A DNA stretch of 64,000 nucleotides from Acanthamoeba castellanii str. Neff (lineage: Eukaryota > Discosea > Longamoebia > Acanthamoebidae), in assembly GCF_000313135.1 (NCBI RefSeq), contig NW_004457654.1, forward strand, positions 637,506 through 701,505, written 5' to 3'. Shown here one piece after another: positions 14,795 to 64,000 of the stretch (the first letter of the stretch is position 1; every line of letters begins with the position of its first letter). A program made the translations under genes and the position numbers. The notes below the pieces were generated by a model, which was given only the letters and a program-made list of their open reading frames with translations, searched no databases and was not told the DNA's origin.

Positions 14795-17759
14795 ATGGAG
14801 CCGCAGTGGCCTGGTGCTGGGGACGAAATAGGAGGCCTTTCATCCTGGCTCCTCGAGCTTGGGTTCGGCTCTCCTCATTTTGTTTAATCTGCATCCCCCC
14901 TCCACTTTTTTGTCTGGCTCCTCGAACTTGTCCATCCGTAAATTAAATTACGATTTCGTGTTTGCTGGGCTCTATTCAAATTGCGTTTCTTTATTTGCTT
15001 GTAGAGTGGAAGGAGGCGGCCTGAACCACAGCGGCAATGGGCTTGGCAGTTCCGGGAACAGCAGCGGGGGCCTCCTCAACTCGGGCGGCGGCAGCTTGAG
15101 CGGAAGTGGCGGCAGCGGCAGCGGGGCGTGGGGCCTCGACCGCAGCCTCGTGGCCGACTTCATGGAGAACATCTTTGCCGACACTGCCCTGGGCAGCAGC
15201 GGCAACACCCCGCTCTCTCTGTCCGGCAACACCAACAACTCTTCTTCTTCCTCCTCTTCCTTCTCCACCGGCGCCATGCCCTCCTTCGCTCCCCAGACAA
15301 CATCACAGCAACAGCAACAGCCACCACAGCTCCAGCTGCACTACTCCACCTCTCCTTCTACTTCTTCTTCTGCTTCCTCCACGTCTTCCTCTCCCACAGC
15401 GCAGATGCCCACACTCCAGCTCCATCAGCAGTATCAGCAGCCGCAGCAGCAGCCCCAGTTTCAACCGCAGCACCCGCAGCAGCAGCACTACTCGCAACTG
15501 CCGCCCTTCCAACCGCAGCAGACCCAACAGCAGCAGCCTCAGTTCCAGGGCTACCAGCCGCAGCAGCAGCCGCAGCCGCAGCAGAGCGTGGCGATTGGCG
15601 GCGGGAAGCAGATCAGCATTCCCTCGTTTGCGCCGCCGACGCCCACGCCGGTGTTTCCGCCGCAGACGCCGCCCGGGCTCGCGCCGTCGCTCACCCCGAT
15701 GGGGTCGCCCGCGCCCATGTCGCCCACGGGCGGGCTGCGGCTCGAGATGAAGCCCAAGCTCGAGTACACCGAGTCGGCGTCCATGACGAGCGGCAAGGTG
15801 GTGCACACGAGCTTCCTGCTCCAGCGCCAGCCCGTGCTCGACTCGCTGTGGGACCTCCAGCGCACCCAGAACACGCAGCTCGAACTCGTGCGCGCCAAGC
15901 AGAAGCAGCTCTTCCTCGCACCTGAGAAGAACCTGTTCGAGGTACTATTACGGCGTTAGCACAGCTCTGGTTTGATAGTGCTGGGTGAGCTGAACCGTGT
16001 GTGTGTATATATATATATATATATCTACGACAAACGCAGGAGGTGTACCGATTGCAGGTCGATTTGCGCAACCGGGTTGACGCCGAACTCAGGGCGGTGG
16101 AGCAGCTCTATCAGAACACGGTGCTCACTCTCGGCGACCTGAACAAGTGGCTCTCCCTCAGGCACCAGGTATTGGCCATTGGCTACACACTTGCGCTCGA
16201 GCCCGCACACTTCTAAGACGCAACTTTGTTCGACGTGCAGTTTGCCATTCAGTCGAGCCAGCTGGACCTCTACCAGCGTGAGCTGCTCCAGCTCACCGAG
16301 CACAAGGCCGGCGGGGCGCAGTGCTTCGCCACGCTGGCCATGACGGAGCGGCCCGCCTCGTCCGTCATCTTCAAGGGCAAGCACTTTGGCCAGCCCTACG
16401 TTGTACATCTACTCACCGGTAACTACTCTACTACTACACGCATTCCACGCATTCCTCGACACACCAGTCGCGCTAACCGCATTCGGTGCCAATCGCGCAG
16501 GCGCAAACGTGGACTTGACGTGCGTGAGCAAGGTCAAGGCGTCCATTGTCTGCGAATCGCACCTGTGGAAGGGCAAGGTCGCCAAGAAGTCCATGAACGA
16601 GGACACCAAGGTGATCGAGCTGCACCAGCACGTCGTCCAGTTCCAGCCCAAGTTCCTGGTAGGCACGCGCAAGAACGCGGTCAACCTGCGGTTCTCGGTG
16701 GCCGTGCGGAGCGACGACGCCGTCCACACGATCGAATCCGACCTCTCCAACCCATTCATCGTCATCACCAACGAGTGCCAATGGGCCGAAGCCGAAGGCA
16801 CACTCATCAAAAAAGGTATGTCGCACACGCGTATCGCACGCGCACGACCGCACACGCACACCGAGGCTCACACCTGTGGATGTGTTGTTTGTGCAGAGGC
16901 GTTTGGAGGCCACCTGGAGATTCCCTGGGCGCGGTTCGCCAACGTGTTCCACATGCACTTCATCCGAGCCACGCGGCAGGACGTCAACAAGCCAGCGCGT
17001 GCCTTCCACGCCGGCGATTTTGAGTACCTGCACGACAAGTTTTTCGGCAACAAGCAGATGGTCTCCTACAAGGACTTTGATCAGGTACGCCTCTCTCTTC
17101 TCTTCTTTGTCATCTCTCCAGTTTACTCACCCACCCACACACACACACACCACCGCACACACTGCACACCACACCGACCGCGCGCGCACACATCACACAC
17201 ATCACACACACCACAACAGTTCTGGTCGTGGTTCGGCAAGGGCCTGCACATCTTGCGTTATCAGCGGCACGTGGGGAACCTGTGGAAGAGCGGTCTCGTG
17301 TACGGGTTCATCGCCAAGGACGCCGTGCATCGGGCTCTCTCCAACGAACGGCCGGGCTCCTTCCTCGTCCGCTTCTCCGAGAACCACGCCGGCTCCTTCG
17401 CCGTCGCCTACAAGCACATCGAGGCACTCACCTTCCCATTGCCTGTGTGTCGTGCGTGTCGCGTGTGTCGTGTGTCGTGCGTGTCGCGTGTGCCCTCGTG
17501 ATCTGATGATGGTGATGATGACGATGTGCAGGAGGTGAAGCACTATCTGGTGAAGCCGGACGACATCGCGGGGCCGAAGAAGACGCTGCCGGACTTCCTG
17601 CAGGAGTGACCGCAGTTCGTCTACGTGCTGCGCCTGGCCATCGACCCCGACGGGCGGCCGCTCCTCACCTCCCACCGCAAGGACGCCGTCCTGGACCCCT
17701 TCCTCTCCCACCGCCCGTCCGTCTCCGCCCCCGGCTACGACGAACTTCCCCACGAGTGA
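14795..17759 (+). CDS. STAT-family transcription factor with an in-frame UGA near the end of its SH2 domain
   Basis: Eight phase-checked exons: 14795-14862, 15005-15941, 16040-16168, 16241-16418, 16501-16815, 16897-17084, 17220-17444 and 17532 onward. Residues 1-270 are Gly/Ser- then Gln/Pro-rich, as in Dictyostelium STATs. A coiled-coil segment follows ([20 protein letters not shown]), then the STAT DNA-binding fold, with [20 protein letters not shown] and [15 protein letters not shown]. The linker is [18 protein letters not shown], and the SH2 domain has [19 protein letters not shown] with the phosphate-binding Arg in LVRFS. The frame meets TGA at 17607 after LPDFLQE (705 residues) but continues cleanly in the same frame as [16 protein letters not shown] to a second stop at 17757. 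That tail contains [11 protein letters not shown], a candidate for the C-terminal tyrosine that STAT SH2 domains bind on dimerisation. The start uses ATG 14795, whose 68-nt exon joins in phase. Confidence 0.92.
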
Positions 17760-57737: not shown

Positions 57738-60700
57738 ATGGGGGCGGAAGCAAGCGTGCCGATGGAGGTGAACGAGGCCGACGTGAGCTGGGTGGCGGCC
57801 CCTGGTGGCAAGTCAGGGGTGGGGGTGGTGCGGTGGCGCTCCAAAGTGCTCCACGCCTCGCCTCTCCTGCGCGCCCCTCACCCCGCCCGCGCGGCGCACC
57901 TCCTTCGCCAATGGAAGTACGGCACCCTGCTTGCCTTACTTGTAGCACTTTTTTTTATATTATTTATCAATATTTATTTCTAATAATAATAATGGCTTTG
58001 CTACTTGATGTGCAACACAATAACAGGGCACATGAGGCCAAGCTGAAGAAGCACCCACACGTGCTAAAGATAGTGGGCGTGCTACGTGTGGCCAAGACCG
58101 ATGTGTGGCACATCCTCACCGAACCCTACACCGTACGTACTACTCGCCACTTGCTACATTCTACTTGCTACTTGCTTTCTCGCTTCTTGTTGTTGTTGCT
58201 CGATGGTAACGAGGCCTTGTTGGCGTGGTTGCAGAAGGTGATGGAGCTGCCGCTCATGGAGGACCTGGCGGGAGGGAAGCGCGGGGTGGTGCCCCTGTAC
58301 AGCCGACTCGAGATCGCCCACCAGGTGGCCCAAGTCGTGGCCCTCCTCCACCAATGCGACATCGTACACGGCGCCCTCACGCTCGACCAGGTCGTCATGG
58401 TACCGTCCACTTCCCTCTACACCTCTTTCATCATGACGGCCTCGACTATCCGATCGCCACCAACCACTAACCACTACGTTCTACGTTCTACGTTTTACTG
58501 ATGTATATTTATACATTTGCTTTGCGCTACTTATGTGCAGACGGACCGAGGGTTCAAGGTGAAGGGGATCGGGTGGAACTGGGTGCAGGACGAGGAGGCG
58601 GACCCGCTCTACCTGCCGCCGGAGGCCATGGACCGGATGTCGAAGCAGGACCTGGGCCACACCAAGGAGGCTGACATCTTCGCCCTGGGCTACCTCCTGG
58701 GCGAACTCTACACCAACCGCTCGGTGCGCGACGTCTTCCTCAGCGAACCCCAGTTCAAGGACGCCAGCGGCAAGCCCGACAAGTACCCTCCATCATTCCA
58801 CACATTCCACATTCCGCACTGTTCGGTGGAGGCCTAACGCCTTCCTGATGCGCCAATCAGGGCGTTGTGGAAGAAGCACGTGGTGCTGCACAAGTTCAGT
58901 CCGGTGCAGGAGCACGATGTGAACAAACAGATGTCCAAGCTGCTCACGTCGTGCTGGAAGCGCGACACCGACAAGCGACCGTCGGCGCAGGAGGCGCTCG
59001 ACATGCTCACCGAGGCCATCCTCGAGAAGGTCCTCCGTAACCGCTTCGCGCGCACCATCTGGCAGGCCGCCCTCGACAAGCAATACGAAGTACCTCCTCG
59101 CCCCTGTCGCGGGTGTCGTGTGCGTCGTGATGCGTGTCGTGCGTGTCGTGCGTGTCGTGCGTGTCATGCGTTTCGTGTTCGTGCGTGTGTCCGTTGATAA
59201 CAACGTGGTCCATGTGTGCAGTTCAACAGGTCGGAGGCGAATCCCTTCGAGGTGAAGTGGCAACACTTTGCGTGGGCGTTCTACGTGAAGCATATGGGCC
59301 TCAAGATGCCCAAGCCCAAGAACATCCCACCCAAACGCTACCACCTGCGCTTCACCGAAATCCTCGGCCTGCTCTTCATCCACGAACTCCTAACTCGTAC
59401 GCATTCCTAACGCGCCAAGGCTTGTTGCTATACAACAGACGCTGACACGATACACGACACGACACGAACGACACGCACACGCACACGCAAAACAGGCGAC
59501 GAGGACGATGAGAGCAAGCGGCTGAGCACGCTGCTGTTGTCCGGAAGCGGGAGCGGCATTGGTGGTTCGGCGGTGCGGGACAAGAAGAAAGAGAAAAAGA
59601 AGAAGAAGAAATCCGACAACGATCTCCTCAGCGCCAAGGGCATCAACGTGCAGGCCGCCTCGCGCGGTGAACTCCGTGGCATCGTCCCGTACGCTCGACC
59701 GCGCACGCACACGCACCTCCGCGCACGCGCACGCGCTAACAGCTGAGTGTGGTGTTTTGAACGTCATGGGACAGGTTGGATGATTTCTCATCGTTCCTGC
59801 TGTGGTTTCCGCTGCTTGGCCCGGCAGGCGACACTACGCTCCTGAAGGACGTGGTGCACGTCATGGGCCACAGGTGACCCTCCACCTTTCCTTTTCTTCT
59901 CTTCTCTTCTCTTGACACAACTCTCACTTCAATCAATCTCTTTGGCGCCGCCCAGATTCTTCCAAGCCATACGCACCAGCGGTGAAGCCGTGCGCCTTCT
60001 GAACAAGCAGCCCAAGGGTACGCCTTTCTTCGGCCATCGCCGTCGTCTACATGGATTACATTCCTGAGACCAACGGTGGCGTGGGCAACGACATTGCAGG
60101 GACGTTCTTGATGCGGTTCAGCGGAGAGCCGGGGTCGTTCTCGATCTCGTACGTGCTCGACTTCGTATCCAAGCCCTCTCCGCGTACCGAGCTGCGTCAC
60201 CTCCGCTTCTCGCGCCTTCCCGAGGGCCGCTTTGCCGTCGTCATCAACAATCGGTATGGCGACCACACACGACACACACGACACACACGATACACACGAC
60301 ACACAACTAACGTTCTCGCGTGTGTGCGTGTGCGGTGGAATGCAAAGAACGGAGAGCTTTGCGTCGCTGGACGAGCTGCGGAAGGCGCTGGTGCGGCAGT
60401 CGGCGGTGTGTCTGGAGAAGGAGTACGTCAAGCAGTCGGGCAGCAGCCTCGACGAGCTGCGCGCCCTCTGGTCCATGGTCGAGGAGGACCCCGACGAGCT
60501 CGAGGACCTCGGCTATCGCCCCATCATCACCTACGCCACCGCCAAGACCTCCTCCGAGGTATGTTTCATATTTCCATTTCATTTCAGTTTCAGTTTCAGT
60601 TTCGTTTCAGTTTCGATTAATCAGGTTTTACTTTTCTTGTAGGCGGCGGTGGCGGCCGGGCTGAAGGAGGGCCAGGTGCGGGAGACGATCGAGGAGCTGG

Positions 60701-63700
60701 AGGGCATCCTCACGTACAAGGGCAAGGCGCGCCTTGTCTCCATCCGCCAGGGCGTGCTCATGATCTACTCCCTCAACGAAGACGGCAAGGTACCACCGCC
60801 TTTCATGTCATGACATATCATCACGTGCAACAGACCATGAAGGCTTTACAATGTAACGCTCTCTTGTTCGTTTCGGTCGAATCCAGGGGTCGGCCGAAGC
60901 GTTGGTGGGTCCGCTGAGCCAATCGGTGGGCGGCCTAGAACTGGTCAACGCGGCGGAGCTGCGGCTCTCCCTCAGGGCCAGCGGCGCGCTGGTGGAGTCT
61001 TCGTCTTCGTCAACACCGGCCGTCTCATCATCATCGTCATCATTGTCGGTGTCCTCTTCAAATTCCTCGGCGTCCGTGTCGCCCCGGCCGTCGACGTCGG
61101 GCATCCGGTCGAGCAGCAACGAGGCCCTCCTCTCCAAGATTCGCACCGGCCGCCACCACCCCCACAAGGTGGTCGTGCTGGACGGTGCCGCGGTGACCGA
61201 ACTCAAGGGCGAGATGTCGTTCCGCCTCGAGTGTAACGGGTGGGTCGGCGTGCTCAGCTGCGACAGCGTCCCTGCCACAGCCAAGGTACCAACATCACTG
61301 CACACGACACACACACGACACGCACCATCCCACACGCACACACTAGAAGGAATCTAAAGCGTGCGGGCGCTGTGTAGTGGATTACGTGCATCTCGCACTG
61401 GTCGTTGCAGGGCAAGCGGAACAGGTATTCGTCGTTCCGCCCGCCGCACGCGTCCATCCCGGCCCAGTGGTACGTCGACGGCGAGGACACGTACGAGGCC
61501 ATCGCCGACGCCATCGAGTCGGCGCGCAACTGCATCTTCGTGGCCGACTGGTTCCTCATCATCGAGACCTACCTCCGCCGCAAGCACCCACCCAGCATCC
61601 ACAACCGCTTCGACAAGATGATCCTCAAGAAGGCCCAGGAGGTTCGCATCGCATTTTATTTACCTGTCGTGTGTGTCGTGTGTGCTAACAATGTTGTTGG
61701 CAGGGAGTGCATATCTATGTGCTGCTCTATTTCGAGGTCAACCTGGCGCTGAAGCTCAACAGCCAGGCCACGGAGCGGAAGCTGGCCAACCTCCACCCCA
61801 ACATCCACATCATCCGCCACCCTCGCCTCCGACCCTTCTCCTGGTCCCACCACCAGAAAATCGGTATTTCCCCTTCCACAGTCGTTTCTGTTCTTGACCC
61901 ACTTTGACCTACCAGCTTTGACTATGTTCCAATGGTTGACTTGACTTTGTGTGGACTTGACCACGGCCGTATGCAGTGGTGGTGGACTACGACACGGCGT
62001 TCGTGGGCGGGCTGGACCTGTGCTTCGGGCGCTGGGATCGGCGCGACCACCCGGTGGCGGACCCGTGCCACCTGGCCACCCTGTGGCCCGGGCGGGACTA
62101 CTACAACCCCGAGCTCGAGGGTCTGTCCAATCAGAACGTGGAGAACCCTTTCGTCGAAACCCTCGACAGGTACTACTACTCGCCTACTGCGCCACCCCCT
62201 CAGCCCTTTTGTGTGGTCGACAAGAAGAATCAGCCAGTTGCTGACGACAGCGGTGTCGACAGGAACAAGCAACCGCGTATGCCGTGGCACGACATCCACA
62301 TGCGGGTCGGAGGCGAGGCTGCGCGCGACGTCGCGCTAAACTTCATCCAACGTTGGAACCACCACAGGTCGGCTCTCCGCGCGCTCCGAAACGGTCGTGA
62401 AATTCACGCCGTGCTAAACTTCGCGTGTGGCGTGTGCGTGTGCGGTGGTGCGTGTGCGTGTGCGTGTGCAGGGACAAGAAGAACGAAACGATGCGTGCGC
62501 AGGTGCCCTACCTGCTGCCGTCCGTTTCGCCGCCGCAGACGCCCGCCGGGACGTGCGAGTGTCAGGTGGTGCGCTCCCTCTCCGATTGGTCCGGGTGCAA
62601 CCGCACCGAAGACTCTATTGCCCAGGTATATATTTCTTCTACATATACATATATATAATATCACTTTCCACATGCTCTTTTGCTTGATATATATTATGTA
62701 TACGAGACTAAACATCACTGTGTCGTAACGTATCGTGTGCGGCAGGCCTACTACGAGTTGATCGAGGGAGCACAATATTTTGTGTACATAGAAAACCAGT
62801 TCTTCATTTCCTCGACGGCGGGCTCCGCCGTGCAGAACCGCGTGGCCCAGGCCCTCGTCAACCGCATCATCCGCGCTCACAAAGAAAAAGGTACGTGCGC
62901 ACACAACGCAACGCAACACGACATGACACGACACACGCCGCACGACACGACACGACACGACACACACTCATGGCATGATGGTGGCGGTGGTGGTGGTGTC
63001 ACGTGTGTGCACACAGAGGTGTTCCGGGTGATCATCATCCTGCCCAACTTCCCCGAGGGGAGCTTCTTTGCGCCGGAGGTGCGGATGGTGATGAAGTGGA
63101 CCTACGAGACCATCTGCCGCGGCGACACGTCGCTCCTCGCCCAGCTCCAGCGCGCCGGCGTCAACATCCCCGAATACATCTCCTTCCACCAGCTCCGCTC
63201 CTGGGGCCACCTCGACCAGGTGCGTACCCTCCCGCCCAAGCTTGCGTCAGCATGACGTCAGCGTGTGTGCGTGACGTCACTCACTCACCAACACACGATG
63301 CACACGACACACACGACGCACAGGGACCAGTGTCGAATCAGGTGTATGTGCATTGCAAGTGTATGATCGTGGATGATGTGTGGACGGTGATTGGGTCGGC
63401 CAACATCAACGATCGGTCGATGCTGGGCGTGCGCGATTCGGAGGTGGCGATCATCACGCGCGACAAGGCGCCCGCCGACGGCAAGATGAACGGCCGCAAC
63501 GCGCGCGTCTCCTCCTTTGCCCAGTCGCTCCGCATCTCCCTCTGGCGCGAACACCTGGGCCTCCTCGGCGTACGACGGCTCTTCTCGCACGCAAGTTTCC
63601 GCACACGCGCGCGCATGTCTGACGCGCCGCACACGACACACGCCGCACCGCACATGACACACACACTACGCAGAAGGAGGGTGGATCGGAGGACGCGCTG

Positions 63701-64000
63701 CTGCTGGACCCGATTCACGCGAACACGTTCCACGGGCTGTGGCGCAGGGTGTCGCAGAACAACACCACGATCCACTGCCAGGTGTTCGCCAACACGCCCT
63801 CCGACGAGTACAAGACGCTCAAGGACTACTCGCGCGCCCTCGAACGGCGAGAAGGTGCGCCCCCCCCCTCTCTATCTCCCAGCCCACATCGTGGCACTGA
63901 CCACGCTCACCGACTATCGTGTCGTGCGGTGTGTGTCGTGTCGTGTTGTGTCTCGTCGTTGATGTGTCGTGCAGCCAACCCGATTTCAGCGCGGGAGGTC
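57738..64000 (+). CDS. Pseudokinase-SH2-PH-phospholipase D fusion (partial, runs off the right edge)
   Basis: Twenty-three phase-checked exons give 1335 codons without a stop. Start ATG 57738 ([18 protein letters not shown]). Residues about 60-290 are kinase-like: [35 protein letters not shown] and [20 protein letters not shown]. However, the HRD loop is HGALTLDQV (140-148), DFG is GIG (159-161) and no VAIK lysine or glycine loop is visible, so it should be catalytically dead. A linker ([18 protein letters not shown]) precedes an SH2 domain with [18 protein letters not shown], phosphate-binding Arg 489. This order is that of Dictyostelium SHK proteins. A PH-like region (about 615-785) is followed by PLD: HKD1 has H914, K916, D921 (HQKIVVVD) and HKD2 has H1194, K1196, D1201 (HCKCMIVD), both intact. 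It should hydrolyse phosphatidylcholine to phosphatidic acid at membranes recruited through phosphotyrosine. Confidence 0.9.

Follow-up and report, generated by a model that had tools for sequence, protein, structure and literature searches.

A pseudokinase, an SH2 domain and a complete phospholipase D joined in a single protein of Acanthamoeba castellanii

The gene described here lies at the end of the window (the whole stretch of 64,000 nucleotides from Acanthamoeba castellanii that was analysed) and encodes one single protein composed of a degenerate kinase, an SHK-type linker with SH2 domain, a PH-like region and a full phospholipase D (PLD) module of the PLD1/2 type. This fused architecture is not unique to the window gene; it is transcribed and conserved. 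Judged from its sequence and that of its relatives, we suggest that the protein is probably a phosphotyrosine-targeted phospholipase D. We claim novelty for recognising that the fusion constitutes a family and for the function proposed, not for the bare sequence, of which a deposited example already existed.

The gene occupies positions 57738-64126 of the plus strand and consists of 23 exons and 22 GT-AG introns in consistent phase, coding for 1387 amino acids with zero internal stops (Table 1). It ends 126 bases beyond the window, with the final stretch taken from the same contig, and its genomic span is 6389 bp. The window corresponds to bases 637506-701505 of contig C44. A profilin frame elsewhere in this genome matches PDB 1acf (profilin I of Acanthamoeba) over 125 residues with two differences in the alignment, in agreement with Acanthamoeba as the organism. 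In exon 1 the reading frame is already open from 57702, i.e. 12 codons upstream of the first ATG, and an AATAAA is found a short distance 3' of the stop codon. A database protein of 1390 residues (P0001, source 'lgn'), encoded on a contig of 4294 nt, is identical with residues 1-1383 of the 1387 in the gene model. The difference is confined to the end, where the seven deviating residues of P0001 presumably represent sequencing adapter. Since the 4294-nt contig encodes the whole gene, the genomic span of which is considerably longer, the underlying transcript is spliced. P0001 is moreover independent of the hand-drawn model because it moved the start of exon 14 from 61411 to 61378, and identity with such an independent protein over this length means that the gene did not arise by chance in the modelling. 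Hence, a spliced transcript spans the region from the kinase through the PLD. The initial annotation had proposed a single phase-consistent chain of 23 exons, which is now sustained by the complete model together with the identity of P0001; the transcript break between SH2 and PLD exons (about 60250-61400) that it had named as counter-evidence is contradicted by this one spliced transcript, seen as protein and not as reads. When the SH2 part and the PLD part were used as queries against the own genome, the best candidates included exon-wise matches to the gene but no intronless copy. Among the 120 database matches listed the full-length protein is present from source 'lgn' only (12 member sequences), and because no NCBI-named Acanthamoeba entry occurs among them, the protein may be divided up or missing in public gene models. 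The downstream neighbour gene on the opposite strand (L006 8300-9900, minus strand) has, judged by eye, the look of a Ras/Rab-type GTPase.

Table 1. Features of the window gene, with positions counted from the first base of the window and residues from the start of the predicted protein.
Feature	Position	Strand	Basis
Exons 1-6	57738-57916, 58027-58132, 58235-58399, 58541-58782, 58861-59089, 59222-59396	+	
Exons 7-12	59496-59688, 59775-59873, 59956-60017, 60100-60253, 60348-60558, 60643-60789	+	
Exons 13-18	60887-61285, 61378-61641, 61704-61863, 61977-62169, 62263-62367, 62472-62625	+	
Exons 19-23 (exon 23 crosses the window end)	62746-62890, 63017-63219, 63324-63569, 63674-63854, 63975-64126	+	
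Pseudokinase	57738..59002	+	Pfam Pkinase at residues 65-278, with a short N-lobe ahead of it
HGA replacing HRD, residues 140-142	58367..58375	+	Alignment; coordinates from exon table
GIG replacing DFG, residues 159-161	58565..58573	+	Alignment; coordinates from exon table
Kinase-SH2 linker with Lys-rich stretch inside	59003..59980	+	Homologous to the linker of the own-genome predicted SHK-type kinase
SH2 domain, residues 472-545	59981..60378	+	Pfam
Codon of SH2 Arg489 (betaB5)	60114..60116	+	Sequence; present in all 4 fusion proteins
PH-like region, divided by a Ser-rich insert	60700..61410	+	Pfam PH in paralogue; structure model of P0002
Phospholipase D catalytic module	61411..64126 (beyond the window from 64000)	+	
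First HKD motif HQKIVVVD, residues 925-932	61851..61987	+	Interrupted by intron 61864-61976
Second HKD motif HCKCMIVD, residues 1205-1212	63351..63374	+	

The domain content was determined with the curated cut-offs of Pfam. The first run used a model of 1376 residues, eleven residues short, and was repeated with P0001, giving near-identical values. In the 1376-residue model Pkinase (E 7.5e-12), PK_Tyr_Ser-Thr (7e-9), SH2 (1.2e-6), the PLDc motif in two stretches (1.5e-13) and PLDc_2 (3.7e-13) all exceed their cut-offs. The fused architecture that had been read from the bare sequence is thus borne out by Pfam on the joined protein, by the spliced transcript and by three relatives.

These relatives were sought in a protein database with the 1376-residue model, again eleven residues shorter than the final one. 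Of the 7984 candidates that were scored 147 matched, and among the 120 matches listed only three (P0001, P0002 and P0005) carry an SH2 domain. P0002, a EukProt transcript, is 44% identical over 89% and comprises SH2 and PLD; it starts within the kinase, for which the Pkinase match remains below the cut-off (24.3 bits versus 31.7). P0005 comes from Balamuthia mandrillaris, bears the database name 'Phospholipase, variant 2' and contains kinase, SH2 and PLD (32% identity over 53%). Directly past the second HKD motif its C-terminal end diverges from that of the other fusion proteins. The third relative, paralogue B, is a predicted gene on C133 of the own genome (38.4-Mb assembly), with the order kinase-linker-SH2-PH-PLD as in the window gene and with an SH2 exon located 5 kb from a PLD exon. 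Located at about 68000-78000 of C133, it is nearer to the Balamuthia protein, and both have a Lys/Glu-rich insert between the PLD halves. Five own-genome loci were matched by the PLD query, namely C44 (the window gene), C133, C93, C201 and C124, and a motif search added C250 as a further PLD locus. Only two of these six, C44 and C133, have an SH2 match listed less than 10 kb away. When residues 1-593 alone served as query, none of the 7996 candidates scored matched at E 0.01, presumably because generic kinase words dominated the search. In a profile search four of 7991 scored candidates matched, namely P0002 and another three proteins with a kinase domain. Since it missed P0001 and P0005, which are members of its own query, this survey of relatives represents a lower bound.

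The phylogeny was reconstructed for the PLD domain only (33 rows), with a program that stars branches from 95/80 upwards. All four fusion proteins fall on one side of a branch with 94/90, present in 96% of 200 bootstrap trees, which narrowly misses this star and includes paralogue B as a prediction. They form two pairs, each supported at 100/99, in which the window gene is joined to P0002 and paralogue B to Balamuthia, and the next-nearest PLDs (85/79) possess RasGEF, cyclic-nucleotide-binding and GRAM domains instead. The simplest reading of this topology would be one fusion event followed by a duplication before the split of Acanthamoeba and Balamuthia.

The kinase part of the window gene has lost three motif residues, as is evident from alignment: the lysine of VAIK is replaced by Ser41, the aspartate of HRD by Ala142 and the aspartate of DFG by Gly159. 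The degeneration to HGA and GIG that the initial annotation had pointed out is therewith confirmed, and the catalytically competent TKL kinase domain of an SHK kinase is missing. The DFG aspartate is absent from all four fusion proteins; its place is taken by Gly in the window gene, by Asn in Balamuthia and by Glu in both P0002 and paralogue B. The term dead kinase is firmest for the window gene, because the HRD aspartate is retained in Balamuthia P0005 and paralogue B, in the former together with the VAIK lysine. We infer that the pseudokinase serves as a docking or allosteric part without phosphorylating activity.

A predicted kinase-linker-SH2 gene of the own genome on C143 (Pfam kinase E 2.5e-56, SH2 E 4.5e-16) is matched by a profile built from the four fusion proteins, covering the end of the C-lobe, the linker and the SH2 domain, over 212 columns (hhalign probability 98.9, E 1.5e-17). 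This match assigns the front half of the fusion to the SHK type. Both the order kinase-linker-SH2 and a homologous linker are found in this comparison, so the early label SHK-like was justified with respect to the own-genome predicted gene. Judged by eye, the predicted chain at C143:194500-203499 also includes stretches that are RhoGAP-like and WD40-like, and it continues past the SH2 domain; these additions may be separate genes. Another linker-SH2 frame occurs at 16344-17501 of the window (plus strand), with its SH2 match at 17301-17423, and resembles a STAT.

The SH2 domain itself gives a modest Pfam score (28.9 bits versus a cut-off of 21) and a best PDB match of E 0.0032, and its fold is of low confidence in both structure models; the model of three fusion proteins has a mean pLDDT of 36.2. 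Its pocket did not decay alongside the kinase: Arg betaB5 and Arg betaD6 are present in four of four fusion proteins and His betaD4 in three (Asn in Balamuthia), with the positions named as in Src. The intact Arg489 noticed at the outset is the betaB5 residue and was kept in all four. In linker and SH2 the window gene shares only 30% and 35% identity with the members of the other pair in the tree. Directly C-terminal to the SH2 domain follows Tyr561, invariant across the four fusion proteins.

For the PH-like region Pfam PH gives no match in the window gene, where it is below detection also with P0001, but predicted paralogue B exceeds the cut-off (E 7.1e-6). The structure model of P0002 exhibits strands and a C-terminal helix in this region, the first half with low confidence. 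PX (PF00787) was not found in the window protein, P0001, P0002 or P0005 among families up to E 1. The Foldseek and VIA matches listed are of the PLD fold, without SH2 and PH folds among them; this silence says little, given how low the model confidence is for the SH2 domain.

The PLD part matches human PLD1 with E 1.4e-126 and has both HxKxxxxD motifs within a full catalytic domain, as is typical of PLD1, PLD2 and PLD-zeta. That both motifs are intact had been claimed before and holds true for the family: His, Lys and Asp of the first are kept in four of four proteins and those of the second in the three of three alignment rows that reach it, and predicted paralogue B shows VHSKLIIVD at the second position. 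No PLC family appears in Pfam of the window protein or P0001, i.e. there is no PLC X/Y barrel and the catalytic part is a PLD. Since the kinase was lost while SH2 pocket and PLD motifs were retained, it can be argued that binding and lipid cleavage are the selected functions.

According to the function proposed, amoebal tyrosine kinases would phosphorylate membrane proteins, e.g. at the phagocytic cup, and the SH2 domain would bind the phosphotyrosine and thereby bring the PLD to (or open it at) its membrane substrate. The PH-like region may contribute a phosphoinositide check or additional lipid binding, the PLD would produce phosphatidic acid on site and the pseudokinase might dock or restrain the enzyme. 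As a whole the protein would operate like animal PLC-gamma with PLD substituting for PLC. The setting for such a role is given by reports of 22 tyrosine kinases in A. castellanii together with 48 SH2 proteins (PMC4053784), of Dictyostelium Shk1 requiring its SH2 domain for plasma-membrane localisation (PMC1420674), of phagocytosis by A. castellanii being hampered by a Src inhibitor (PMC3431265) and of the adaptor Grb2 acting at Y169 of animal PLD2 in ruffling, i.e. in trans (PMC11507850); none of these facts bears on the window protein itself. The complete scenario of a tyrosine-kinase-operated PLD that stems from one fusion preceding Acanthamoeba and Balamuthia, persists in two old paralogues, forms an independent counterpart of PLC-gamma, has a pseudokinase as regulator and is possibly phagocytic appears to us evenly poised.

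Alternatively, the SH2 domain could act within the molecule or a dimer, where its own phosphotyrosine would hold the PLD shut or open and the pseudokinase would be packed on the SH2 domain. The constant order kinase-linker-SH2 in the window gene, predicted paralogue B and Balamuthia is as expected of touching parts, and the invariant Tyr561 just past the SH2 domain fits as well. However, common descent also accounts for the conserved order, the interdomain models are not confident and we know of no phosphosite in the window protein, so we consider this reading rather unlikely. Clearly less probable still is that the SH2 domain lost its ability to read phosphotyrosine and that the remnants of kinase and SH2 merely form a passive spacer on an ordinary PLD. 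The decayed kinase motifs and the modest SH2 match would agree with this, but a spacer is not expected to keep Arg betaB5 and Arg betaD6 in four of four proteins when the linker-SH2 identity is as low as given above. Finally, that SHK-like and PLD genes were wrongly joined or linked by rare read-through is hardly credible: just one species-matched transcript-derived protein is available, via the protein database, but it agrees with the model at 1383 of 1387 residues, the fusion recurs in Balamuthia and P0002 and is predicted in paralogue B, and the PLD part places all four in one group.

With PLD1, PLD2 and PLD-zeta the window protein shares the whole catalytic module, both HKD motifs and, ahead of these, a putative PH region, but in contrast to the PX-PH-PLD superfamily it has no listed PX domain, the place of which is occupied by pseudokinase, linker and SH2. 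Animal PLC-gamma is the textbook case of phosphotyrosine-to-phospholipase coupling in a single chain. It likewise combines SH2, PH-type parts and a phospholipase in one chain that leads from tyrosine kinases to a lipid messenger, whereas the window protein has a PLD fold, one SH2 domain, no detected SH3, a pseudokinase and another product. To our knowledge, coupling of PLD to phosphotyrosine is known only via separate adaptors such as Grb2. If the phosphotyrosine-targeted PLD is real, the wiring of phosphotyrosine to phospholipase would have been found more than once, with a different lipid product, and there would be a testable handle on phosphatidic acid in amoebal phagocytosis and on the service of a pseudokinase to a lipid enzyme. 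The Dictyostelium SHK kinases (Shk1-5, TKL with SH2; PMC1420674) are described with the same kinase-linker-SH2 order, but the window gene differs by its lost kinase motifs and the PLD after the SH2 domain.

No description of an SH2-PLD was found among the papers listed by the literature searches, with supplementary Figure S4.4.3 on SH2 architectures (PMC4053784) outside that scope, and Balamuthia mandrillaris together with SH2 domain gave no literature match. The genome paper on Acanthamoeba mentions phospholipase a single time in its main text, as phospholipase C (PMC4053784), and Figure 6 of a Physarum paper sorts SH2 proteins by architecture (PMC4758236). The initial statement that no PLD of such arrangement had been described therefore agrees with this literature but has to be qualified in that the Balamuthia protein was already deposited under its phospholipase name. 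The nearest other PLD domains (85/79) are those of P0003 from Planoprotostelium and of P0004, in which the PLD also stands behind large signalling modules; in contrast with the fusion proteins these modules are RasGEF, cyclic-nucleotide-binding and GRAM domains, and no SH2 or kinase is listed. P0003 additionally bears a terminal molybdenum-cofactor radical-SAM domain, which may be a gene-prediction fusion.
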